From Notolepis coatsorum (Eukaryota; Chordata; Actinopteri; Aulopiformes; Paralepididae), in assembly GCA_963971535.1 (NCBI GenBank), contig OZ020593.1:18582783-18646782 (forward strand): 64,000 nt of DNA, given 5' to 3'. The translations under genes were made by a program, and so were the position numbers. The notes beneath the pieces were generated by a model. That model worked only from the letters and a program-made list of their open reading frames with translations. It was not told the origin of the DNA and did no database searches. Positions 2,447-35,809 of this stretch are shown here, piece after piece. Within the stretch, counting starts at the first letter, position 1; each line of letters begins with the position of its first letter.

Positions 2447-3396
2447 CTAGAACAAAGACACATAATTGTATAACTTATTAGCCTATTAAATGTTAGTTTG
2501 GCATGAACATGTTGACATTGGCCCACTAGTCCAGTTCTAAAATAGTGCAGCAAGAGTTCATCAAAAGTAATCAATTAATGAAAATAATTTGACTTTCATT
2601 AATAAATAATAACTATAAATAATAAACTCTATATATATAATAATAATAATAAATAATTACATTTTTGTTCAGATCTGTCATTGGGTCTCATTCCCGAACG
2701 AATTTACGACCAAAAATTCCGTCTTAGCCAGATTTTCAGCCCATTTAAGACATATTAGGGCTGGGAGCGGGAGTCCCCAAATTTTCCTGAGATCAGATTT
2801 GATCGTGGCTGAGAGCAGATTTAAGAGTGCTGAGGAGCAGTCTTATGATTGATTGACTAATTAAAATTTGTATTAACTTGACAGACTGTTCTCATAGTGA
2901 TTCCTTCACGTCAACGCTACAGGCCTCATTGGAATTAATTACTTAATCATAATTAAAATAAATATGAGAATATTTGTACGATAAGAAATTACGTTATTTG
3001 ATGTCGGAAAAATAAATAGCACTACACACACTGCAAATGACTCGGAATAAATAAATACATCAGCCACATAATTCTGTTATAATTTTATTGTTCTTATTTA
3101 TAGTTTGGGACATTTGCTTATTGTATACATTATAAGAGCCAGTGGATAAACATTCCACTGCTCATCTTACCGGTACGATGTTGCGTGTGACAAATAAACC
3201 TGACCTTGCAGGTGCACTTGAACAGCAATCATGTACATTGAACCCTGGCATCCAATTAACAGTGATTAATCACGCTATGCTTAAATGGTCAACTCTGCAC
3301 CCAAGGCTTACACACACAATTATGGGTAACCTTCAGCATAATCAAGCTCGATACGAACGCGCAATGAGGAGGGAGCGCCAGTACAGGGACCAGACC

Positions 3397-3847
3397 ACGC
3401 TGATCTCTTCGCCGAGAGTGACGTGTACCTGCTGGGACGCTTCAGGCTGCCAAGACCTGTGCTAATGGAGCTGTCCGAGATGCTGGAGCCACCACTGAGG
3501 AGCCAGACCAGACGCTCCAACCCTGTGCCACCGCACGTGCAGGTACTGTCCACCTAGCTACTGGAACATTCCACAGGGAGCTAGGAGACAGGGTGGGCAT
3601 ATCCCAGACCTCCATCAGCCGCTGCCTCCCACAGGTCTTGGCTGGCATCGTGGAGTTGACCACACAGTATATCAGATTCCCCTTTTCCGCCCAAGAGCTG
3701 ATCCCAGTGAAGACGGCATTCCATGCCATCGCTGAGCTGCCAAACATCATCGGCGCTATTGACTGCACCCACGTGCGCATCCTGGCACCCTCCCCAGACC
3801 CGTTCCCATACCTTAATCGGAAGCAGTACCATTCTATCAATGTACAG
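3397..3847 (+). pseudogene. Harbinger-1 transposase, N-terminal exon
   Basis: Translation reads ADLFAESDVYLLGRFRLPRP with PPLRSQTRRSNPVPPHVQ, then in a second frame LATGTFHRELGDRVGISQTS, GAIDCTHVRI and NRKQYHSINVQ. These are hallmark HARBI1/PIF segments: GxIDCTHV holds the first catalytic Asp and YHSINVQ is the conserved splice-site block. The exon ends at GTACAG|GTATGT, the standard intron position. A small deletion near 3552 shifts the frame between QVLST and LATGTF. The rest of the protein resumes at 9031 after an intron now filled by LINEs. Upstream, 3142-3396 gives no clear Harbinger similarity. The known role is the DDE nuclease that works with the Myb-like partner. Confidence 0.85.
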
Positions 3848-4278
3848 GTATGTTTCTAGTTTTTGTTAACTCTTGTTACCACTTCATCCAATTGGACAGC
3901 ACCTTGCTTCCTTTTCTTATCTTACTTGTTTTTCTTTTTTCCTGTGTTACTACATATTTAGAATAGAATAGAAAACTTTATTGCCATTTCAACCATGGTT
4001 GATTGGGATTCGTCTTGGTGCCACATACAGTACAGACATTATAAAAACATACAATAAAAAACACAAGAATACATGCAATACAATCCCCACAAAAGTTTTA
4101 CACAAACAATTAAAAAGAAAAAATACAACAGTACCTAAAATAAATTGCTCAGTGTTCCAGTTTAAAGTGCATATTGCCTTAAAGTGCATGTCGGCTGGTG
4201 CTAGCCCTTGTTGTGCAAAGTGCCTGAACATTTGTACTCGAGTTCAGGTGACTGACAGCCTCGGGATATGTACTGTTT

Positions 4279-5346
4279 TTAAAACGGGATGTCCTGCACC
4301 TGAGACTTGAGTCTTCTGCCAGAGGGAAGGGGGTTAAAGAGGTCGTAAGCAGGGTGAGAAGGGTCCCTGATCACCTTCTCCCCTTTCCGCCTGATTTGTG
4401 TGGCATAAATGGAGGCCACAGAGGGGAGCTCACAGCCGATGATTTTTGACGCTGTGCGTACAGTTCTTTCTAAATGTCCCCCATCATGGACGGTGGTGTT
4501 TCCGTACCACACAGTCATTGAGAAGGTGAGGAAGCTCTCCACAGTGGCTCTGTAAAAGCTGAGCATCGCCTCCCTGGACACACCAAACTCTTTAAGTTGG
4601 CTCAGGGAGTGGAGCCTCTGGTGGGCCTTGCTAATTATGAGGCTGGTGTTAACTTCCCATTTGAAATTATCACATATGGTGATGCCGAGGAATTTTAAAC
4701 TGTCTACCCTCTCCACCTGCTGGCCGTTTATGTACAGAGGAGGGTGGACTGCCTCCCCTCGTCGGAAGTCAACTATAATTTCCTTCATCTTAGAGATGTT
4801 TAAGAGCAGGTCGTTCTCCTTGCATCATACAGCAAAGCTATAGACTTCAGCTCTATAGGCCGATTCATCCCCGTTCTTAATTAGTCCCACTACTGTTGTG
4901 TCATCCACGTATTTAAATAATCTAACAGAATCAGAGTGGGAGGCACAGTCATTAGTGTATCGACAGTAGAGCAGAGGAGAGAGAACACAGCCCTGGGGGG
5001 CCCCGGTGTTCAAGGTCCTTGATCTAGAGAACAAATTACCTATTTTAACCACTTGTTCTCTGTCTGAGAGAAAATCTAGAATAAAATAGCACAGAGACTC
5101 ATCAATTCCGAGCAATTTAAGTTTTTCAAATAGTTTAAAAGGCACAATCGTGTTAAACGCTGAACTGAAATCAATAAACAAAATTGGTACATAAGTGGCG
5201 GAGGCCTCCAGGTGCTGCAGGATGGTGTGTAAACACATAGATACAGCATCCCCTACAGACCTGTTGGGCTGATAAGCAAACTGATACATGTCTAGTTTAA
5301 CAATACTAGATAAATGATCACAGACAAGCCGCTCGAACACCTGCAA
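4279..5346 (-). pseudogene. LINE-B reverse transcriptase, core and C-terminus
   Basis: The first part reads QVFERLVCDHLSSIV, then VPILFIDFSSAFNTI (RT motif A with the catalytic Asp), TGAPQGCVLSPLLY (motif B) and LFKYVDDTTVVG (motif C with Asp-Asp). The second part reads MKEIIVDFRRGE, LKFLGITI, MTVWYGNTTVHDGGHLERTV and DPSHPAYDLFNPLPSGRRL, the typical L2/Rex1 thumb and C-terminal end. The parts are separated by one in-frame TGA where the family has a Trp (AVWCKEN became AV-stop-CKEN). Otherwise the frame is open, so this copy is not very old. Confidence 0.9.
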
Positions 5347-7757
5347 AAAAGAATTTCATCAATGACAAAACTGAGGAAAACAAAAACAAACCACGTGAAC
5401 TTTGGAAATTACTCAATAATCAACTAGGATGCAGTAAAAAACTTAAAACCAGATTCTCAAACATAAACATAAAAACGGACAACACGCTCATCACAGACAA
5501 GCTGGATGTAGCCAATTACTTAAACATTTTCTTCACAAACATAGCCACAACACTGGTAAACAAACTACCCTCCCACTCAGGGCTTTATGGGGTAGAACAC
5601 ATAGTAGCTTACTACAAAAACCTAGGGGTCCGCAAGGACGACTTCAAGCTGGAAATGGTAACAACAGATGAGGTACTCAATAAACTGAGCGCCCTCCAAC
5701 CTAACAAGGCCACTGGCCATGACAACATCCCCTCCAAATTCCTCAGAGACTCGGCAGCCGCCATCACACCAATCATCACACACATAATAAACCTCTCCAT
5801 AAAACAGGGACACGTCCCCAAGGACTTCAAAATTGCGAGGGTGACCCCTCTGCACAAAAAGGGCAGCAAATTAGACCCAGGCAACTACCGCCCTGTTTCT
5901 ATTCTCACCTCCATCTCGAAAGTCATGGAAAAAATAGTCTACGAACAGGTCGAAAAGTACCTAGCGGAAAAAAATCTAATCTACGAATTCCAATCTGGCT
6001 TCAGAACATCCCACTCCACTGACACATGCCTTCTCTATTTGAATGACCACATCAAACAAGAGGTGGACGCAGGCAAATACTGCGGCATGGTCATGCTGGA
6101 CCTACAAAAGGCCTTTGACACGGTCAATCACTCCATTCTGATTGACAAGCTAAAAGCAATTGGTTTTGATAGTCTATCAGTGAGCTGGATGCAATCCTAC
6201 CTTGAGGGGAGGGAACAGATGGTGGAGGTAAACGGTACCCTATCCCCCCCCCTCACAGTGAGCTGTGGTGTTCCACAAGGAAGCATACTAGGACCGCTAC
6301 TGTTCCTAATTTATGCAAATGACATGTCGTCAGCTTGTGACTGCAACTTGTTCCTGTTTGCGGACGACTCAGCCCTGCTGGTCTCTGACAAGAACAAGTT
6401 ACAGGTTGAAAAAACCCTCAGCTCGGAACTAGGCAGAATCTGCATATGGCTCGCTGATAACAAACTATCATTACACATGGGCAAAACAGAGTCCATTCTC
6501 TTCGGTTCAAATAACAAACTCAGCAAGACCGACGGCTTCTCAGTTACAGTGGGTGACAATATTGTCACAAGGAAAGATGAAATTACCTACCTGGGTTCCA
6601 TCCTAGAGGCTAATCTCTCCTGTGACAAAATGGCATCCAATGTAATAAAAAAAGTCAACCAACGAACTCGATTCTTGTACCGGATCTCCTCTCTGGTAAA
6701 CAAGAACACCCTGAAGACTCTGGCAGGAGCACTCATTCAGGGGTACTACGACTATGCTTGCACCTCATGGTACCAAAGCACCTCAAAGGCGCTAAAAACA
6801 AAATTACAAACATCTCAAAACAAACTGGTCAGACTACTGCTTGACCTTACTCCTAGAACCCACCTCACCCCTGCCCACTTTGACAACCTAGGATGGCTTA
6901 GAGTAGACGACAGAGTACAACAACTTGCAATGGGCCTGGTCTACAAGATACACTACACGACCAAGGTACCCATGTACATGTCAAAATACTTCCCAAAGGT
7001 CAGTGAATACCACGATCACAACACCAGAGGGAGCTCCACAAATCATGTTAAACCCAGATTCGGCTCAAATAAGGGACTAAACACGTTTCGCAATTATGCC
7101 ACATCAATGTGGAACGCCCTACCCAAAGCTGTAAAGGAATGTGGATCACTACCCACTTTCAAAACCTCTCTCAAGGGACACCTACGGGAGACTGCAATTC
7201 AACACTGGCCCCTGTAAATATCCTAACCCAACCCCCTCCAATGTACAGTCATTTACCTAGTATGGTTGTCAATAGTTCAATGTACAATTGTGTTTGTTTG
7301 TACAGTGTCTCCTCCCCCCCCCCTCAATGTACAGTGTTACTTGTTTATACAGTGTGCCCCCCGGCCCCCCCCCCCCCAACCACCTCCAATGTAAATTACC
7401 CAGTATGGTTGTCAATATCCCAATGTACCCAACCCCCCCCACCCAACCTCCTCCAATGTACAGTTTCTACGTCAAATGTATATACTCCCTTTTCTTGACT
7501 CCTTCTGTATCACAAACAGTACTGTATTTGCAAATCTGGTATGTCATAAATGTATAGATGTAGCAGTACTGACTATCTGTATGTCATGTATGTCATATAT
7601 GTCTATATGAATTGAAAATGGGGGACCCTGATGGAAACAAGACAAACGTCTTTCTCAGGTCTGCATCCCCTTAACAATTGTATGTATTGAGCCGTACTGT
7701 ATTGTACCCATTCTGCAATCTGTTAAATAAAGTTTTCATTCATTCATTCATTCATAA
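5345..7757 (+). mobile_element. LINE-A, best-preserved copy
   Basis: A 5'-truncated non-LTR retrotransposon on the plus strand. It has an open frame from 5349 to 7217, a 3' UTR rich in C-tracts and CCTCCAATGTACAGT modules (7218-7500), the shared tail segment (7500-7730) and a terminal (ATTC)n run at 7736-7755. It interrupts LINE-B, and I see no clear target duplication. The same 3' end recurs at least eleven more times in the window, so the family has been very active. The 5' part with the endonuclease is missing. Confidence 0.9.
5349..7217 (+). CDS. LINE-A reverse transcriptase ORF, 5'-truncated
   Basis: An uninterrupted frame runs from the truncation point; the first ATG is at 5655, but homology starts earlier at NFINDKTEENKNKPRELWKL. 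Order of motifs: LQPNKATGHDNIPSKFL (RT entry), VMLDLQKAFDTVNHSILIDK (motif A), VSCGVPQGSILGPLLFLIYA (motif B), LFLFADDSALL (motif C, FADD), YLGSILEANLS, then the C-terminal FRNYATSMWNALPKAVKECG ending IQHWPL. No stop or frameshift is visible in over 620 codons, which points to a recent insertion. The product would copy its own RNA at a nicked target, but the copy lacks the endonuclease. It belongs to the Jockey/CR1/I group; I do not assign the clade. Confidence 0.9.
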   Translation, partial: KNFINDKTEENKNKPRELWKLLNNQLGCSKKLKTRFSNINIKTDNTLITDKLDVANYLNIFFTNIATTLVNKLPSHSGLYGVEHIVAYYKNLGVRKDDFKLEMVTTDEVLNKLSALQPNKATGHDNIPSKFLRDSAAAITPIITHIINLSIKQGHVPKDFKIARVTPLHKKGSKLDPGNYRPVSILTSISKVMEKIVYEQVEKYLAEKNLIYEFQSGFRTSHSTDTCLLYLNDHIKQEVDAGKYCGMVMLDLQKAFDTVNHSILIDKLKAIGFDSLSVSWMQSYLEGREQMVEVNGTLSPPLTVSCGVPQGSILGPLLFLIYANDMSSACDCNLFLFADDSALLVSDKNKLQVEKTLSSELGRICIWLADNKLSLHMGKTESILFGSNNKLSKTDGFSVTVGDNIVTRKDEITYLGSILEANLSCDKMASNVIKKVNQRTRFLYRISSLVNKNTLKTLAGALIQGYYDYACTSWYQSTSKALKTKLQTSQNKLVRLLLDLTPRTHLTPAHFDNLGWLRVDDRVQQLAMGLVYKIHYTTKVPMYMSKYFPKVSEYHDHNTRGSSTNHVKPRFGSNKGLNTFRNYATSMWNALPKAVKECGSLPTFKTSLKGHLRETAIQHWPL

Positions 7758-8880: not shown

Positions 8881-9030
8881 GCCTCAGTCGACCACTGCCT
8901 CAGTCCTTTTAATAGTCTTTAACTGCTGACGGTACTGTGGGATTAAAAAAAATCCCTATATATATTATATCTACCCTTTTTATATAGCTTCTCTCTTCAA
9001 ATAGAATTTATAATTATTATTTATTATTAG

Positions 9031-9612
9031 GTCATCTGCGACGCCAACAACCAGCTGTTGAACGTCGTCGCCCGTTTCCCACGACTCGTACATCCTCCAG
9101 AACAGCGAAGTGGGTATGCTCCTCGAACAAGGAGACGCATGGCTAATTGGTAAGTATCTATGCGTATAGAATTGTTCTTTCAACAGTATAGGCTTCTATT
9201 CCTCCAATGACTTGTTTTATTAGGAGACCGTGGATATGCACTGGCCCCATGGCTGATGACCCCAGTCGCCAACCCTCACGCCGCGCAGGAGGCGGCATAT
9301 AACGAGCGCCATGCACACACCCGGTCCACCGTGGACTAGCGCACAATTGGGTCAATAAAGAGACGCTGGATGTGTTTGGACGCAGCAGGTGGAAAAGCTG
9401 CTGTACAAGCCGGATAAGGTGTGTATGAAGGCAACAGCTGATAAATTGTTTTGGCCGTGCCGTGTTAAAACATGTATGGGTGCCCACCTCAGCCCAATAC
9501 AATATATGTTGCATGTCATTTATTGTGGCTTATTTATTCTTTCCAGGTGTGTACGATTATCATGGCCTGCTGCGTCCTGCACAACATCGCAGAGAAGCGT
9601 GGTGTCCCGCTA
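9031..9612 (+). pseudogene. Harbinger-1 transposase, middle exons
   Basis: Three exon pieces. 9031-9149 follows a TTATTATTAG acceptor and reads VICDANNQLLNVVARFP, then in another frame HDSYILQNSEVGMLLEQGD and AWLIG up to GTAAGTATC. 9224 to about 9418 reads DRGYALAPWLMTPVANP, AAYNERHAHTRSTV, a stop where the family has the catalytic Glu (VERTIG), then KRRWMCLDAAGG and LLYKPDK. 9547-9612 follows TTCCAG and reads VCTIIMACCVLHNIAEKRGV. The remaining C-terminus resumes at 11046. The blocks match HARBI1-type transposases in order and intron position. Several frame changes make it inactive. Confidence 0.85.
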
Positions 9613-21154: not shown

Positions 21155-21754
21155 AAAGTTTGCCAATAGGGATGTATCGGTAGTATTCAGTGTTTCCCTT
21201 ACATGCTGCTGAATTAGGACCGCCGCTGCTATGAACTAGACTATTAAAAAAAAAAATTAAACAAATTTAAAAATTAAAAAAATTATATATTTTTTTATCA
21301 TATCATTTGGGCTGTGGGGGGGTGCTTAATGTAAAAGACTGACCTGAGGAAAAGGCTGCAGGGAGACCACCCTCGTTCTCCTCCTCGTTCTCCTCCTCGT
21401 TCTCCTGGGTCTCCTCGTTAGTATAGTGGCGAGTATCCCCGCCTGTCACGCAGAAGACCGGGGGTTAAATTCCCCGACGGGGAGCCTCTACTTGTGTAGT
21501 GGCTTTACCAAATCAGCCACTGTATTTTATCTTCGAGTTATTTTAAACTCACACACACCACCCCTCTCCCCAATTATTTTCTCACCTGGTTCTTCCTGCT
21601 CTCTCTTCCTGTCCTTCTTCTTCCTCTCTCCCCCTTTGCTGTCAACCAAAAAGCCAACATTAACACAACATGAAGGGTGACCCTCATCAAGGGCACTCCA
21701 AGACGAGGGGTAGGGCCAAGCCGTAGGGCCAAGGGGAGAATTGGGACGCAGCCT
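21155..21754. repeat. 600-bp repeat with tRNA-Asp-like core, copy 1
   Basis: Matches 35228-35809 from AAAGTTTGCCAATAGGGATG to GACGCAGCCTAAG, with small indels in the A-run and in the CTCCTCGTT tandem block. It contains the tRNA-Asp-like sequence and downstream text shared by both copies. It looks like a repeat family member rather than a local duplication. Confidence 0.8.
21412..21484 (+). tRNA. tRNA-Asp(GTC)-like sequence, probably not a functional gene
   Basis: TCCTCGTTAGTATAGTGGCG, then AGTATCCCCGCCTGTCACGC with anticodon GTC and closing CCCCGACGGGGAG follow vertebrate tRNA-Asp. Deviations: 73 rather than 72 nt, GTTAAATTCC in place of the GTTCGATTCC B box, and CAGAAG where CGGGAG is usual, which unpairs part of the anticodon stem. 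It lies within a repeat also present at 35228-35809. Confidence 0.6.
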
Positions 21755-26684: not shown

Positions 26685-28706
26685 GTCACTGTACAGGACA
26701 ACAAGAGTAAGTAGCTAGTCACTGTACAGGACAACAAGAGTAAGTAGCTAGTCACTGTACAGGACAACAAGAGTAAGTAGCTAGTCACTGTACAGGACAA
26801 CAAGAGTAAGTAGCTAGTCACTGTACAGGACAACAAGAGTAAGTAGCTAGTCACTGTACAGGACAACAAGAGTAAGTAGCTAGTCACTGTACAGGACAAC
26901 AAGAGTAGGTAGCTAGTCACTGTACAGGACAACAAGAGTAAGTAGCTAGTCACTGTACAGGACAACAAGAGTAGGTAGCTAGTCACTGTACAGGACAACA
27001 AGAGTAAGTAGCTAGTCACTGTACAGGACAACAAGAGTAAGTAGCTAGTCACTGTACAGGACAACAAGAGTAAGTAGCTAGTCACTGTAAAGGACAACAA
27101 GAGTAAGTAGCTAGTCACTGTACAGGTCAACAAGAGTAAGTAGCTAGTCACTGTACAGGACAACAAGAGTAGGTAGCTAGTCACTGTACAGGACAACAAG
27201 AGTAAGTAGCTAGTCACTGTACAGGACAACAAGAGTAAGTAGCTAGTCACTGTACAGGACAACAAGAGTAAGTAGCTAGTCACTGTACAGGACAACAAGA
27301 GTAAGTAGCTAGTCACTGTACAGGACAACAAGAGTAAGTAGCTAGTCACTGTACAGGACAACAAGAGTAAGTAGCTAGTCACTGTACAGGACAACAAGAG
27401 TAAGTAGTTAGTCACTGTACAGGACAACAAGAGTAGGTAGCTAGTCACTGTACAGGACAACAAGAGTAAGTAGCTAGTCACTGTACAGGACAACAAGAGT
27501 AAGTAGCTAGTCACTGTACAGGACAACAAGAGTAGGTAGCTAGTCACTGTACAGGACAACAACAAGAGTACGTAGCTAGTCACTGTACAGGACAACAAGA
27601 GTAAGTAGCTAGTCACTGTACAGGACAACAACAAGAGTAAGTAGCTAGTCACTGTACAGGACAACAAGAGTAAGTAGCTAGTCACTGTACAGGACAACAA
27701 GAGTAAGTAGCTAGTCACTGTACAGGACAACAAGAGTAAGTAGCTAGTCACTGTACAGGACAACAAGAGTAAGTAGAGCTAGTTACTGTACAGGACAACA
27801 AGAGTAAGTAGCTAGTCACTGTACAGGACAACAAGAGTAGGTAGCTAGTCACTGTACAGGACAACAAGAGTAAGTAGCTAGTCACTGTACAGGACAACAA
27901 GAGTAAGTAGCTAGTCACTGTACAGGACAACAAGAGTAGGTAGCTAGTCACTGTACAGGACAACAAGAGTAAGTAGCTAGTCACTGTACAGGACAACAAG
28001 AGTAGGTAGCTAGTCACTGTACAGGACAACAAGAGTAAGTAGCTAGTCACTGTACAGGACAACAAGAGTAGGTAGCTAGTCACTGTACAGGACAACAAGA
28101 GTAAGTAGCTAGTCACTGTACAGGACAACAAGAGTAGGTAGCTAGTCACTGTACAGGACAACAAGAGTAAGTAGCTAGTCACTGTACAGGACAACAAGAG
28201 TAAGTAGCTAGTCACTGTACAGGACAACAAGAGTAAGTAGCTAGTCACTGTACAGGACAACAAGAGTAAGTAGCTAGTCACTGTACAGGACAACAAGAGT
28301 AAGTAGCTAGTCACTGTACAGGACAACAAGAGTAGGTAGCTAGTCACTGTACAGGACAACAAGAGTAAGTAGCTAGTCACTGTACAGGACAACAAGAGTA
28401 AGTAGCTAGTCACTGTACAGGACAACAAGAGTAAGTAGCTAGTCACTGTACAGGACAACAAGAGTAGGTAGCTAGTCACTGTACAGGACAACAAGAGTAG
28501 GTAGCTAGTCACTGTACAGGACAACAACAAGAGTAAGTAGCTAGTCACTGTACAGGACAACAAGAGTAAGTAGCTAGTCACTGTACAGGACAACAAGAGT
28601 AAGTAGCTAGTCACTGTACAGGACAACAAGAGTAAGTAGCTAGTCACTGTACAGGACAACAAGAGTCAGTAGCTAGTCACTGTACAGGACAACAAGAGTA
28701 AGTAGC
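26685..28706. repeat. 33-bp minisatellite, block 3 (about 61 copies)
   Basis: The same unit as block 1. Rare point variants (GTAAAGGAC, CAGGTCAAC, GTTAGTC) mark single copies. Length changes are +3 bp (CAACAACAAG; GTAGAGCTAG), so the minus-strand frame is mostly preserved. Confidence 0.97.
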
Positions 28707-29825: not shown

Positions 29826-30365
29826 TATACACACACACACACACACACACTCAACTATGTCCCTGCAACAGTTCAGTGTTTCCCATTAATTACCTAGACT
29901 GTGGCGGCAAGTTTTTTTTTTAAAGGGGAACTCTTATAAATGACCTTTTCCAGTGTTTAGGGTTATTTTCTAGCTATGTGGACTTATAGTAATAGGATCT
30001 ATGTCTCCAATTCTAGATTTGGCGCATTCTTCCAATTATCATCTCACAATAATGTCCCTCCCTCAAGTGGGTCATCTGAAAATTTGCGTATTCGGGACGT
30101 CAGATGGTCCTCATTTGCATAATAACGCCCGCCCCCCTCTAGCTGCCAGCCACCGCAGGTAAACAGTCAAACATTATTTATTGCAGGACGCAAGCAAATG
30201 GAATTGAAGTGAGTTAGCATTGGATTAGCTAGACGTCATGAGCAAATCGGGCAAGCTACGTTGTGCTGTTCCTAACTGCCGAGCAACAAATGTGTCCTTG
30301 CATTTATTCCCTGATGATAGCGTGACCTGTAATCAATGGACCAAGTTTATTTTCGGCGACCCGCC

Positions 30366-31233
30366 GAATGGTTTTCCAACTCCTCGGAGTCGAGTCGACC
30401 GCGTCCCCGACCGCCAAGAACCTTGGTGTTGTCCTCGACGACCAGTTGAACTTCTCTGTTCACATCGCAGCGACAACCAGAACCTGCAGATTCCTCCTGA
30501 TCAACGTCAGAAGGATCCGCCCCTTCCTGACAAAAGAAGCCACCCAACTCCTCATCCAATCAACAGTCATCTCCCGCCTCGACTACTGCAACGCACTGCT
30601 AGCTGGCCTCCCGGCCACTGCCACCAAGCCTCTTCAACTCATTCAAAACGCAGCGGCCCGCCTGATATCAAACCTACCGAAGTCGGCCCATGTCACCCCA
30701 CTTCTTAGGGACCTGCACTGGCTCCCCATTGCTGCACGTATCCGCTTCAAGGCCCTCGACCTAGCATACCGTGCAGCAAAGGGAACCGCTCCCGCCTACC
30801 TCCGGTCAATGGTCTCTAACTACACACCCTCAAGACCCCTACGCTCTGCATCTTCTGGCCGCCTCAGACCTACTCCTATCCAAGCTCCCGGAGGGTCATC
30901 AAAGAGAAGCCGCCTATTCTCAGTCCTTGCCCCACAATGGTGGAATGAACTACCCATCCCAGTTAGGACAGCCGAATCCCGTCCAATCTTTTGCCGTCGA
31001 CTAAAGACTCACTTCAACCATTATCTGAAATGATTAAAAAAAAATCTAACCCTGACTAACTTTACTGTCATGCACTTGTCCTAATAAACTAACCTACACT
31101 GTAACACGCAACACTTGATGAACATTGTTACTCAGCTGATGGAGTTGTACCCTTCTTGCTGTCTTGTCGTACAGAACTTGTAAGTCGCTTTGGATAAAAG
31201 CGTCAGCTAAATGACTAAATGTAAATGTAAATG
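30366..31233 (+). mobile_element. L2 LINE fragment
   Basis: The open frame to 31033 reads SPTAKNLGVVLDDQLNFSVH, SRLDYCNALLAGLPATATKP, LQLIQNAAARLISNLPKS and LRDLHWLPIAARIRFKALDL, ending LKTHFNHYLK: the C-terminus of a fish L2 reverse transcriptase. The 3' end AAGTCGCTTTGGATAAAAGC plus GTCAGCTAAATGACTAAATG and TAAATG repeats is the classic L2 terminus. No internal stop, so relatively young. It splits the THAP exon. Confidence 0.93.
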
Positions 31234-31331
31234 AGTCTGTACCGCACATTTTTGCAAGGAGGACATTGATAATAAGGACTTTATGATGCTGGGATGAGTT
31301 CCAGGATTACACTAAAGAAGGGTGCTGTACC

Positions 31332-31979
31332 TAGAGCCATATGGAATCCGCGATCACGGAATCGCGGACGGAATCGCGGAATTGAGCAATAAAAATGGAA
31401 TCAAACTATAAAAAAATAAAAAATAAATCTTTTTTTTATTTTTATGTTGTGGGACTTGTACAGCACTTTGTTCAACTTTGTCAGTGCTGTAAAGTTTAAA
31501 CCTTTTCAAATCTTAGACAAACAAAACACTTTGCTTTCATGAAATATTGTAAGCCGTCATTTGAGGCTTTATAAAAGCAGCATAATGAACACAAATCTGT
31601 CAGTGCCGAGTCCGACCTCATCTTAAATAACAAACAGCATTGCTTGTTGTAGTTAACAAAGAGAGGCAGAGTTGATTTTGCAAAAATATATATAATTTTT
31701 ATTAATTTTTTTAAATAATAAATTTTTTTCTCATATTCGAATCCCATGCCCATCGAACGAAGCTTCGAAGTATTTAAGACAGCCCTATTAAATGGACTGT
31801 TATATCTTATTAAATTGTGGACATTTATTCATTCCCACTTATTAGACACTATTTCTGATGGTAAAATGAGCGTACAAAGCAAAATACAGAATTCTGAAAT
31901 ATTAAAACGAAAAAAACGGAATTTGGAAGAAAATAAAATGGAATTTGGAAAAAAATAAAACGGATTTCATATGGCTCTA
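31332..31979. mobile_element. hAT element (648 bp), TSD GCTGTACC
   Basis: Ends TAGAGCCATATGGAATCCG and CGGATTTCATATGGCTCTA with the 8-bp duplication GCTGTACC at 31324-31331 and 31980-31987. Removing it restores the THAP reading KKGAVPCIRD. Within, a second hAT terminus (TTCGAAG...AAGACAGCCCTA, to about 31789) suggests an older hAT piece. Confidence 0.92.
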
Positions 31980-32734
31980 GCTGTACCATGTATTCGGGAC
32001 CCGAAAGAATCCGTAAGTACAAATGTAATTAGTCAGCTAACTAAATAATTGTTGCTAGCTTAGCTAACGTTATTTTAGCTCTGTGCTTAATTATATATAT
32101 GTAGACCTAGTTGTGTGTATTGCGAATTAATGATTGTGTTCCTTGTGTGTGTTTGGGGGGGAATAGCTAGGTTTATCTCAGCTGTTTATTGCGCCAAGAA
32201 AATCTAACGTTAGTACACGCTGTGTGTGTGTGTGTGTGTGTGTGTGTTAGACGGAGTGTAAGGTATTCCATCCTAATTGTGAAATAAATGATCAAATAAT
32301 CCAGTCGGGCCTGACTATATTCAATATCTAAACTTTACCTGCACTATTCTTACCCTACCTTCAATGGTTTTATTCCAAGTAGTGAATCAAAATATGTTAC
32401 AGACAGATACCCATTGTATTGTATTATATATGTAATTGTTTTTATCCTTAGGGCAGCAGGCCTTTGCAGCGCCCCGGGACATCTGTTGCCAGACCGACCC
32501 CCCAAATAGGATATCTGTTGGCACTCAGATCTCGAAAAGAACTTTACAGACACATGTCAAAAGTCGAGGTTTGTAACATTTCTGATCAATTAGCAAATTA
32601 TGTATTCCAGTTAGTGCTGTGATGTGTTGCTTAGAATATCAATTCTGTAGCTATTGCACATGTAATGCACACATGTAGTTTTGGCAGCTATAATAGCCTT
32701 TAGATATCAATCTATCTACTGTAATATCATCCAC

Positions 32735-32970
32735 AGACAAACTGCAAATGGTCCAAAATGCTGCAGCCAAAATAATCCTGTCACATCACTCCCATTCTGG
32801 CATCCCTGCACTGGCTCCCGGTACACTATAGAATTAACTTCAAAGTCCTCACTTTTACTTTCAGAGCACTCCACGGTCAGACCCCCATCTACATCACTGA
32901 ACTCATCCATCCCTACACCAACACCCGCTCACTCAGATCTGAACAGGCCATCAGACTTGTGAATGCCTAG
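32735..32970 (+). mobile_element. short LINE C-terminal fragment
   Basis: TDKLQMVQNAAAKIILSHHS, then in other frames LHWLPVHYRINFKVLTFTFR, ALHGQTPIYITELIHPYTNT and RSLRSEQAIRLV-like text. This is an L2/CR1-type RT C-terminus with frame changes, 5'-truncated. Confidence 0.7.
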
Positions 32971-32979
32971 CAATCTGTA

Positions 32980-33990
32980 CACATTGAACTAAAGTCTGCT
33001 TTCTTTGACTACACGAGCAAATGATGTGGACTTCAATTCACCCTGTCCTGTAATTAACTGTACATCCTATGTGCATTGCACAACGGCTACCTCCATCACC
33101 TTATCATAAGCTCTCAGTTGACCGATGTAAAGCTTTCTAAATAGTCATAGGCTGATTTTCAATGACCTAACCTTAGTTAGGTTACAGAGCAACCCGAATT
33201 CTTCAATGCTACCTGACTAAGAACAAATGCCATGCTTATAGACCTACAAGAAGCAGACAGACAGTTTGAATGTTCAAGCTTCTTAGATAAGGCTTAGTTA
33301 AGGCTGTTGCAGCAAATAGCATTTGTACTATTTTGTGGTAAATATTTTGCTAACTAGATATTTTTACTTGTTGTAACATTAGCATGTAGAGTAATGTATA
33401 TAGCTAGCTAGTGGTGTATGGAAGATGCTGTTGGAATTTGTGAGCTGGTCTCAGAGTTCAGAGTTTATACGGTTGTGTGTGTGAGTGATTATGCTTGCCA
33501 TAGTGATTGAAGTGGTGAAGACACCATTGCTAGGCAACTGGGCAATGCGTCTTGAAGCCACAACACTGGGTCCTTCATGTGGACTATTCTCATGAACACT
33601 GTAAACACGACCCCATTTAATAATTAAAAGTGTTTGGCAAGTCAGTGCTATTTACTCCTCTTATAATAGTGGATTTATTCCTCCCAGTATTAGTATTTGT
33701 GTTTATGGAAGCCATGTTCTTTTTATTGATAACTGCTCCTTGGTTATCCAATGTTTATTATTTGGATAAATAACAAGTTCAGTTAATCGTATATACTTGA
33801 ATTGTCACCATTTGCACAACTGCCTTTGTTCATTTACAATTACACAATTGTATGATGTACAAGTAATATTCGCTGGTATTATAATGTAAAATAAATTGTG
33901 TTTTGTGCTGTACAACACAGTGACATTCCTTCATGCACAACAGTATTCAAATACATTATACAGCTGTACTGTTATTACATTATACATACT
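32980..33990. other. Kolobok-like element interior without recognisable gene
   Basis: AT-rich sequence. I looked for the Kolobok transposase core in six frames by eye and saw none; it was probably lost or too decayed. Confidence 0.4.
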
Positions 33991-33999
33991 TGTTTACGC

Positions 34000-34940
34000 C
34001 CCGGATTGGCAGATGCCCATAATCTGCCCTGTAGATATTGTTTGCCATTTGCAGCGAATATGGGTTTACTTTAGGCAGACCGGTTCCAAACCTGGGTGGT
34101 CTACCATGCACAAAGGGGGTTCCGGTGCTTGGTCACATCTTCTCCTGACCTATATAAAACAACACAGTTAGTCCATTTATTCACCGTAAACCCTGTCCTC
34201 ATCCTTCAAGGTCAATCTAAAGAATGCGACATTAGCCAGATGCATGTTTTCTGTAACTGTTAGCCAGATGAATGTTTTTGTAACATTGATGACTACCTTT
34301 TCTACTTGTTTTTTAGACTATTTGTGTACTCATAAACAGTACTGTATATTTGTAGATCTGGTATGTCATAAATGTCTAGATGCAACAGTACTGTCTACCT
34401 GTATGTCATTTATGTTATGATGAATTGAAAATGGGGGACCCTGATGTAAACAAGACGAAAGTCTCTCTCTGGTCTGCATCCCCCTATGTAATTGAGCTGT
34501 ACTGTACCCATTCTGCAATCTGTTAATAAAGTTTTCAATCAATCAATCAATCAATACCTGAGGTACTTCCAGGCAACAACGATTCTCCACCGCGGTAGGC
34601 ATTAGAGCACAGTTGCCACACACACCTGCATAAACGAAAGTGCATATACTGTAAAGTGAACAGATTCAACACAATTCCTACTGTACTTGTAAGACGTGGA
34701 TGCAATATATAACATTATGCTTCTCTTTTCGTTGGGCATGCTACCTAATTTACCCAAAGAAAACTAACGTTATAGCTCGCTATAACGTCATAAATGACTA
34801 CTAACTAACGTTACTGTTACTGACTGTTGTTAGACAGTATACATTACCCACCACTCAGAAACAACTTGAAGCCCTCCCTCAATCTCGTCTTCCTCGTAGT
34901 CGGGGTCACTCTCCGGATCAAAAACATATGCTTGCGCCAT
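34000..34940 (-). pseudogene. P2X7 C-terminal (ballast)-like zinc-cysteine protein gene
   Basis: Exon 1 (34940-34852): MAQAYVFDPESDPDYEEDEI, EGGLQVVSEW, donor TG|GTGGGT. Exon 2 (34625-34559, after ATGCAG): CVCGNCALMPTAVENRCCLE then VPQ. Exon 3 (34149 downward, after TATATAG): RRRCDQAPEPPLCMVDHPGL, EPVCL, then in a shifted frame SLQMANNIYRADYGHLPIRG. WCxCGxCxxMPTxxExxCC with CxxxHPGxxxVCL and LQxAxxxYRxxYG is the conserved core of the P2X7 receptor's cytoplasmic cysteine-rich domain and of stand-alone fish homologues. The acidic MAxxYxFxPESDP leader is typical of the latter. It converges on the THAP gene and its start lies 280 bp inside the right end, so I infer it belongs to the transposon. 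One frameshift is visible; a LINE-A tail fills intron 2. Confidence 0.7.
34318..34554 (+). mobile_element. LINE-A 3' tail
   Basis: AACAGTACTGTATATTTGTA through GAATTGAAAATGGGGGACCC to (CAAT)n. Lies in an intron of the P2X7-like gene. Confidence 0.95.
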
Positions 34941-35227
34941 GTTTGTGTACGAGTTCACTTTTGCACGCGTATGGGCGGAGCTACAGGTGGGGGGTCTCTC
35001 TCTCTTCCCGTCACTCAAAAATCGCATTCCAAGTATGGGCGTGGCCAAGCCTCAAAACGGCTTAAAATGTTGAGGTAGACAAATGCTGTTTTTGAGTACA
35101 TGATTAGAAAGAAAATATATATATATATTTTTTTAAATAAACCTTACATATGTGTTCCATAAACTCACAGGAATTGTGTAAAAGTGCCCAAATAGTGAAA
35201 GAAATTGTAAAATAGTTCCCCTTCAAT

Positions 35228-35809
35228 ATAAAGTTTGCCAATAGGGATGTATCGGTAGTATTCAGTGTTTCCCTTATATGCTGCTGAATTAGGACCGCCG
35301 CTGCTATGAACTAGACTATTTAAATAAAAAAAAAAAAATTATAATTTTTTTCTTATCATTTCATTTGGGCTGTGGAGGGTGCTTAATGTAAAAGACTGAC
35401 CTGAGGAAAAGGCTGCAGGGAGACGACCCTCGTTCTCGTCCTCCTCCTCGTTCTCGTCCTCCTCCTCGTTCTCCTCCTCTCGTTGCACCTGGGCCTCCTC
35501 GTTAGTATAGTGGCCAGTATCCCCGCCTGTCAGGCGGAAGACCGGGGGTTAAATTCCCCGACGGGCAGCCTCTACTTGTGTAGTGGCTTTACCAAATCAG
35601 CCACTGTATTTTATCTTCGAGTTATTTTAAACTCACACACACACCCCCTCTGCCCAATTATTTTCTCACCTGGTTCTTCCTGCTCGCTCTTCCTGTCCTT
35701 CTTCCTCTCTCCCTCTTTGCTGTCAACCAAAAAGCCAACATTAACACAACATGAAGGGTGACTCCCATCAAGGGCACTCCAAGACGAGGGGTAGGGGACG
35801 CAGCCTAAG
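35228..35809. repeat. 600-bp repeat with tRNA-Asp-like core, copy 2
   Basis: Same order and near-identity as 21155-21754. It begins only a few bases right of the Kolobok-like element's end. Confidence 0.8.
35496..35568 (+). tRNA. tRNA-Asp(GTC)-like sequence, second copy, likely inactive
   Basis: The same 73-nt tRNA-Asp-like core as at 21412, with anticodon GTC and the same altered B box (GTTAAATTCC). It adds changes at GGCCAGT and in the acceptor stem (GGGCAG), so pairing with TCCTCG is weaker. Confidence 0.55.

Follow-up and report, generated by a model that had tools for sequence, protein, structure and literature searches.

We analyzed a stretch of 64,000 nucleotides from the fish Notolepis coatsorum (assembly GCA_963971535.1, contig OZ020593.1, positions 18,582,783 to 18,646,782 of the forward strand), called the window below, and found in it a degraded Kolobok-type DNA transposon with remnants of two convergent genes. 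On the plus strand lies the start of a gene for a THAP-domain transposase, and on the minus strand lie exons of a small cysteine-rich protein related to the "ballast" domain of the P2X7 receptor. According to Kojima and Bao (2022; PMC9587614), such a protein, KolX, belongs to the Kol0 lineage and is similar to residues 476-595 of human P2X7. The copy in the window is dead, as it is internally deleted, its THAP exon is split twice, and two of its three remaining KolX exons are frameshifted. Its inverted ends read AGGGGAACT from position 29924 and AGTTCCCCT up to position 35222, and an inverted-repeat search of the window gave arms at 29914-29938 and 35208-35232 that are 80% complementary. An earlier sequence-only reading had described both ends as flanked by TTAA; this holds on the left, while the right flank reads TCAA.

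That reading had also placed a THAP gene on the plus strand, and the start of a THAP domain is indeed present there, with a Pfam match of 9.1e-05 over 33 residues whose score of 23.6 bits lies just below the curated cut-off of 23.9. The proposed minus-strand exon series near the right end was likewise recovered, with the gene starting 282 bp inside that end (280 bp in the earlier reading). The peptides quoted for it were stitched across broken frames, because exon 2 has 68 nt and exon 3 has 160 nt and contains a stop. After the splice, exon 2 reads CVWQLC... in the window. Of the 27 other loci in which exon 2 was matched, 25 have it at 70 nt (L011 aligns over 69 nt and L021 over 27), and exon 3 measures 155 nt in 22 of 24 other loci (L018 is cut at 24 nt and L019 has 156). 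The minus frames of window positions 34000-35000, with stops written as X, gave no match to the Pfam family P2RX7_C at E ≤ 1, nor did the single window exons, which we attribute to their shortness and frameshifts. Thus, the relation to P2X7 is drawn from intact relatives and not from the window alone.

We searched the 3.42-Gb assembly for such relatives. With the 369-bp right end as the query, the best 40 of 1518 candidates matched at 88-100% identity (the window copy included), which is far beyond chance. A 477-bp left end containing the THAP start was used in the same way (best 40 of 1515 candidates), and left and right ends on one chromosome, in matching orientation and less than 30 kb apart overall, were joined into 28 pairs, ten of which span 9.6-9.81 kb. 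Full-length relatives are about 9.8 kb long, are flanked by TTAA, and have the termini AGGGGAAC. The right end is followed directly by TTAA at 27 of the 30 right-end loci (L009-L038; 26 counted by script, plus L030, re-registered by hand as the script was one base off), the exceptions being the window, L018, and L035. Of six long copies with both termini, five have TTAA on both sides and C8_33.55 has it on the right side only. The ends have the form AG...CT and so follow the 5'-RR/YY-3' rule of Kolobok elements. Two of the loci, L033 and L034, are both inserted at a TTAA that follows ...CAATCTG (right flanks); this sequence also occurs within the window element (CAATCTGTTAA near 34517) and may be a dispersed repeat.

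Seven long copies, chosen for a THAP match near a right end and hence not a random sample, share the THAP start, the terminal stretches, and the order of parts; the stretch of C35_99.5 begins just inside the left end, and three copies (two on C1 and one on C9) align with one another at 98.4-99.6%. In the 9,780-bp copy C9_147.3, the THAP exon occupies positions 322-645, and a full THAP domain was identified by Pfam in the relative L041 (3.6e-11). Further plus-strand frames of C9_147.3 contain a CxxC pair and, as recognized by eye, the DDE-like motifs TDRHPQI (within 4703-5020) and SPLESYHSV (within 5376-5642), which occur in open frames of five of the seven long copies. On its minus strand, four exons with plausible splice sites can be joined without a stop into a predicted cysteine-rich protein of 164 amino acids. 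A search with the exons of this KolX gene recovered exons 1, 3, and 4 from each of the seven long copies, with exon 4 of C9_104.4 broken in two. Exon 2 was recovered from six of them, the exception being C35_99.5. When the exons of five long copies were joined, four were open throughout and C8_33.55 was frameshifted. Among the 30 right-end loci, exon 2 is present in 28 and exon 3 in 25, counting the window and partial matches; these loci extend only 1.5 kb inward, and exon 1, found in all 30, was part of the search query. In these relatives the transposase gene runs rightward from the left end and KolX leftward from the right end, so that the two genes converge.

To see how regularly copies carry both genes, we searched the genome with the protein sequence of KolX exon 4 of this family. 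Among the best 150 of 452 candidates, 41 with at least 92% identity were kept and 109 of lower identity were dropped. Exon 4 lies within 25 of the 28 paired elements, always in the orientation opposite to that of the THAP gene and never in the same one. This count is a lower bound, since C35_99.5 (C35:99490656) had no row among the 41 although it carries exon 4 (95.8% identical in a DNA alignment), and with it the count becomes 26. Exon 4 was not found in the two remaining pairs, the window copy and C23:60789233, and 16 of the 41 exon 4 matches lie outside any pair. The expectation of the sequence-only reading that copies would hold both genes between TTAA sites was therefore borne out in the sampled copies (25 of 28 by search and 26 by alignment), and a family with the THAP gene and never the P2X7-like gene, which it had named as contrary evidence, is not what this sample contains.

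The earlier proposal of a profile-detectable relation to P2X7 was confirmed with the joined exons of relatives. The joined KolX protein matched P2RX7_C at 5.3e-18, and that of a second family described below at 1.6e-18. Against PDB, the joined protein matched four distinct P2X7 sequences at 3.6e-12 to 5e-10; a fifth match, to a GTP-binding protein at 0.56, was not significant. When two KolX proteins are aligned with the exon of the host P2X7, the cysteines C36, C38, C41, C52, C53, C72, and C139 are invariant. The KolX paper (PMC9587614) gives two zinc ions and seven conserved cysteines for this domain, and the seven found here are presumably the same, judging from their count and motif. The host P2X7 ballast itself is a single exon at C1:154217025-154217489 with an open frame of 179 amino acids; P2X exons lie upstream of it on its own strand, and another group of P2X exons is adjacent. 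Its P2RX7_C match of 213 bits comes from the profile search of the genome, and one frame of this locus (L055) compared with Pfam gave no match.

That profile search, with PF20478, gave 614 candidates, and among the best 150 one was the host P2X7. The other 149 cover profile positions 143-192 only and are stop-free; by our count from the listing, 99 of the 150 rows have an identical score of 48.8 bits. Three of the 149 lie in two stretches that we fetched, of which L053 contributes one and L054 two, and we do not claim that all the matches belong to one family. L053 contains a four-exon KolX gene with splice positions as in the first family, has frames on the opposite strand that match the transposase, and adjoins a TTAA-AGGGG end; no THAP exon was seen in this stretch. 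The KolX protein of this second family is 66% identical to that of the first (107 of 163 aligned residues). Between one KolX copy of each family, the proportion of differences was 0.78 at synonymous sites (pS), which is saturated, and 0.21 at nonsynonymous sites (pN). Conservation of the protein while silent sites are saturated speaks for a function of KolX. A search of viral contigs with patterns from the two-family KolX alignment gave 124 pattern matches, none of which was confirmed; as the patterns were two short ones, both taken from the N-terminal half, this is weak evidence of absence.

Intron 1 of the second-family KolX gene (L053 1083-2457, also in L054) contains 8.6 copies of a 160-bp tandem repeat with 99% matches, and a single unit 81% similar to it lies in KolX intron 2 of the first family (C9_147.3 8906-9056; about 34384-34530 in the window). 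These repeats recall the internal satellites described for Kolobok miniature inverted-repeat transposable elements (MITEs) of Xenopus (PMC6004289). In L054, a direct duplication of 1.56 kb (535-2093 and 2728-4286, 99.8%) includes the last KolX exon, so that local duplication accounts for part of the many exon matches.

Taken together, the element in the window is very probably a Kolobok transposon of the Kol0 kind with two genes, in a copy that is dead and internally deleted. Kolobok elements are described as having THAP, DDE, and H2CH features, a TTAA target, and AGGRR ends (PMC6004289), and the present family has the TTAA site, the RR/YY ends, and the THAP domain; its relatives also carry the Kol0 hallmark, a KolX gene whose product is related to the C-terminus of P2X7 and has seven conserved cysteines. 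Several points weigh against this assignment. The paired set is biased toward window-like copies, as only the best 40 of the left-end and right-end candidates were scored. Twelve of the 40 left ends have no partner, and while seven of these have an exon 4 match in the expected direction within 25 kb, five do not. Given the three forward frames of L041, Pfam recognized THAP but nothing of the DDE type, so that the DDE part, for which the superfamily has a C/DxxH (H2CH) signature, is a motif assignment made by eye, and the KolX exon joins are predictions from splice sites in the DNA alone. The absence of other Pfam domains from those frames also bears on whether the element might be a piggyBac transposon. 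That superfamily likewise uses TTAA, and a few of its families encode a KolX-like C-terminal part (PMC9587614). However, the AG...CT ends here fit the RR/YY rule that the same source gives for Kolobok, and it describes piggyBac versions of the domain as lacking most of the seven cysteines that KolX here has in common with P2X7; with a THAP domain in L041 in addition, a piggyBac origin is scarcely credible. Alternatively, the minus-strand exons could be a host gene resembling nanor or P2X7, in or beside which a transposon inserted by chance, as stand-alone fish homologues such as nanor have been described as host genes (PMC7016195). This is very improbable, because nearly all paired elements have the last exon between such ends, exons 2 and 3 recur in most right-end loci, and the host P2X7 ballast is a separate single-exon locus beside P2X exons.

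Recognition of the ends and cut-and-paste transfer are known for the Kolobok superfamily, and for the present family we infer them from its ends and flanks: a spliced THAP-DDE transposase would use its THAP domain to recognize the AGGGGAAC ends and would cut and paste the element into TTAA. Given the observed gene pair, ends, target site, cysteine pattern, and conservation of KolX between two families, KolX could be a small zinc-fold protein that acts as an accessory factor of transposition and is kept by selection for that role; its zinc fold might bind the transposase, the ends of the DNA, or a partner from the host. Its co-mobilization in two families and its conservation suggest that an accessory role, with zinc binding and such a partner, is most likely. 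KolX might instead serve another use, such as damping host silencing or the transposase itself. The protein is conserved and no catalytic residues were recognized in it, which would suit such a use; nothing speaks directly against it, and selection on the protein fits both readings. We consider it less likely than the accessory role.

The element closely resembles Kol0 (Kolobok-1_XT; PMC9587614) in its TTAA target, AG...CT ends, and combination of a transposase with a seven-cysteine protein like the P2X7 C-terminus, and the window copy differs from it in being deleted and frameshifted. It also resembles the XKol and T2-MITE elements of Xenopus (PMC6004289), with TTAA, AGGRR ends, THAP, and, judged by motif, DDE, and the full-length Xenopus A5 element ends in AGGGGAACTATCATGA, close to AGGGGAACTATCTTAT of the relatives here; the terms "P2X", "accessory", and "second ORF" (open reading frame) are absent from the main text of that paper. 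The ballast domain of P2X7 and the nanor proteins (PMC7016195) have a related domain (E 3.6e-12 to P2X7 chains), but in P2X7 the domain is one exon fused to a channel, whereas KolX stands alone as a transposon gene of four exons. Rump et al. (2020; PMC7016195) described the P2X7 domain and its capture, and the main text of their paper contains no word beginning with "transpos-" and no "Kolobok". According to PMC9587614, stand-alone proteins with this domain had not been recognized as transposon parts, a P2X4-like gene fused with KolX to give P2X7, and nanor is proposed to be a domesticated KolX. The suggestion of the sequence-only reading that the stand-alone homologues are transposon-encoded accessory proteins was thus right in essence and already in print under the name KolX, and its view of the receptor domain as a captured transposon module is supported and equals the conclusion of that paper; it is known and not new. 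The present data alone establish homology and association, not the direction of capture. They add independent genome-level support that the P2X7 receptor domain is common to a DNA-transposon accessory protein, and the coordinates of full-length copies with open KolX genes, together with a second KolX family, are material for tests of KolX function. The window copy by itself has no special importance.

The KolX introns lie at the same three places in both families that we read. Exon 1 has 104 nt in both copies compared and 98-107 nt among first-family copies, and exons 2 and 3 have 70 and 155 nt (156 in the frameshifted C8_33.55). In P2X7 the corresponding exon 13 is one long exon of 170 amino acids (Rump et al.; PMC7016195). 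As KolX is split by three introns and the host domain lies in one exon, then, if the domain came from KolX, either the KolX source was intron-free or introns were lost. We tentatively suggest, at somewhat less than even chances, that the P2X7 ballast was acquired from an intron-free KolX, either as a processed copy or from an ancestral Kol0 element without introns, and not by shuffling of exons such as those of present-day KolX. Intron placement could reveal the route and date of this capture. The comparison is small and may be new: the word "intron" is absent from the main text of PMC7016195, and in PMC9587614, apart from its supplement, the passages shown under "exon" all concern exonuclease and "spliced" is absent, with no search made there for "intron" together with KolX.

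Returning to the window copy (Table 1), both inserts that split its THAP exon are missing from all seven long copies. The reading frame of the first looks by eye like a fragment of a reverse transcriptase of a long interspersed nuclear element (LINE), which we presume it to be; for this frame Pfam listed only an unrelated family, at E 3.1. The second is a MITE that we take to be of the hAT type from its ends and its 8-bp duplication GCTGTACC (31324-31331 and 31980-31987). Another LINE-like fragment is common to the window copy and C35_99.5, so that its insertion predates their separation; C35_99.5 has internal deletions other than that of the window copy. In long copies, the points that meet at the deletion junction of the window copy are separated by about 6.1 kb (in C8_33.55) to 6.5 kb (in C9_147.3), and the lost segment of about 6 kb took the transposase core and KolX exon 4. 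We rejected a multi-copy, non-autonomous subfamily defined by this deletion, because among the best 40 of 93 candidates the junction was spanned by the window alone.

Table 1. Features of the Kolobok-type element and its flanks, in window coordinates
Feature	Position	Strand	Basis or remark
Degenerate Kolobok-type DNA transposon copy	29924-35222		Ends by sequence and inverted-repeat search
Left target site TTAA	29920..29923		Sequence
Left terminal inverted repeat AGGGGAACTCTTATAAA	29924..29940	+	Inverted-repeat arms and comparison with relatives
THAP exon, part 1 (N-terminal half of THAP domain)	30238..30396	+	Pfam THAP 9.1e-05
Insert splitting THAP exon, about 836 bp, after residue SRV	30397..31232	+	Missing here in 7/7 long copies; element resumes at 31233
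THAP exon, part 2	31233..31331	+	96-97% to seven long copies
648-bp hAT-like MITE with TAGAGCCATATGGAATCCG ends, inside AVP box of THAP exon	31332..31979		
Transposase exon 2 (DICCQTDPPNRISVGTQ)	32436..32576	+	Frame resembles family frame at element 1044-1202
Second LINE-like fragment	32745..32938	+	Missing in six long copies, present in C35_99.5
Internal-deletion junction, 5-bp overlap	33010..33014		Comparison with long copies
KolX exon 3 (CMVDHPGLEPVCL; LQMANNIYRADYG), 160 nt vs 155, frameshifted, internal stop	33990..34149	-	L009 636-795
KolX exon 2 (CGNC...CC), 68 nt vs 70, frameshifted	34558..34625	-	L009 1204-1271
KolX exon 1 (MAQAYVFDPESDPDYEEDEIEGGLQVVSEW)	34852..34940	-	Frame and comparison with relatives
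Right terminal inverted repeat, AGTTCCCCT on plus	35214..35222	-	Inverted-repeat search and relatives
Right flank TCAA, TTAA expected	35223..35226		Sequence

Outside the element, two tRNA-Asp (gtc) genes were predicted at window positions 35496-35570 and 21412-21486, the former about 270 bp beyond the right end of the element. On the minus strand, a tandem repeat at 27748-28665 yields an open frame of 305 codons made of repeated LLLSCTVTSY.

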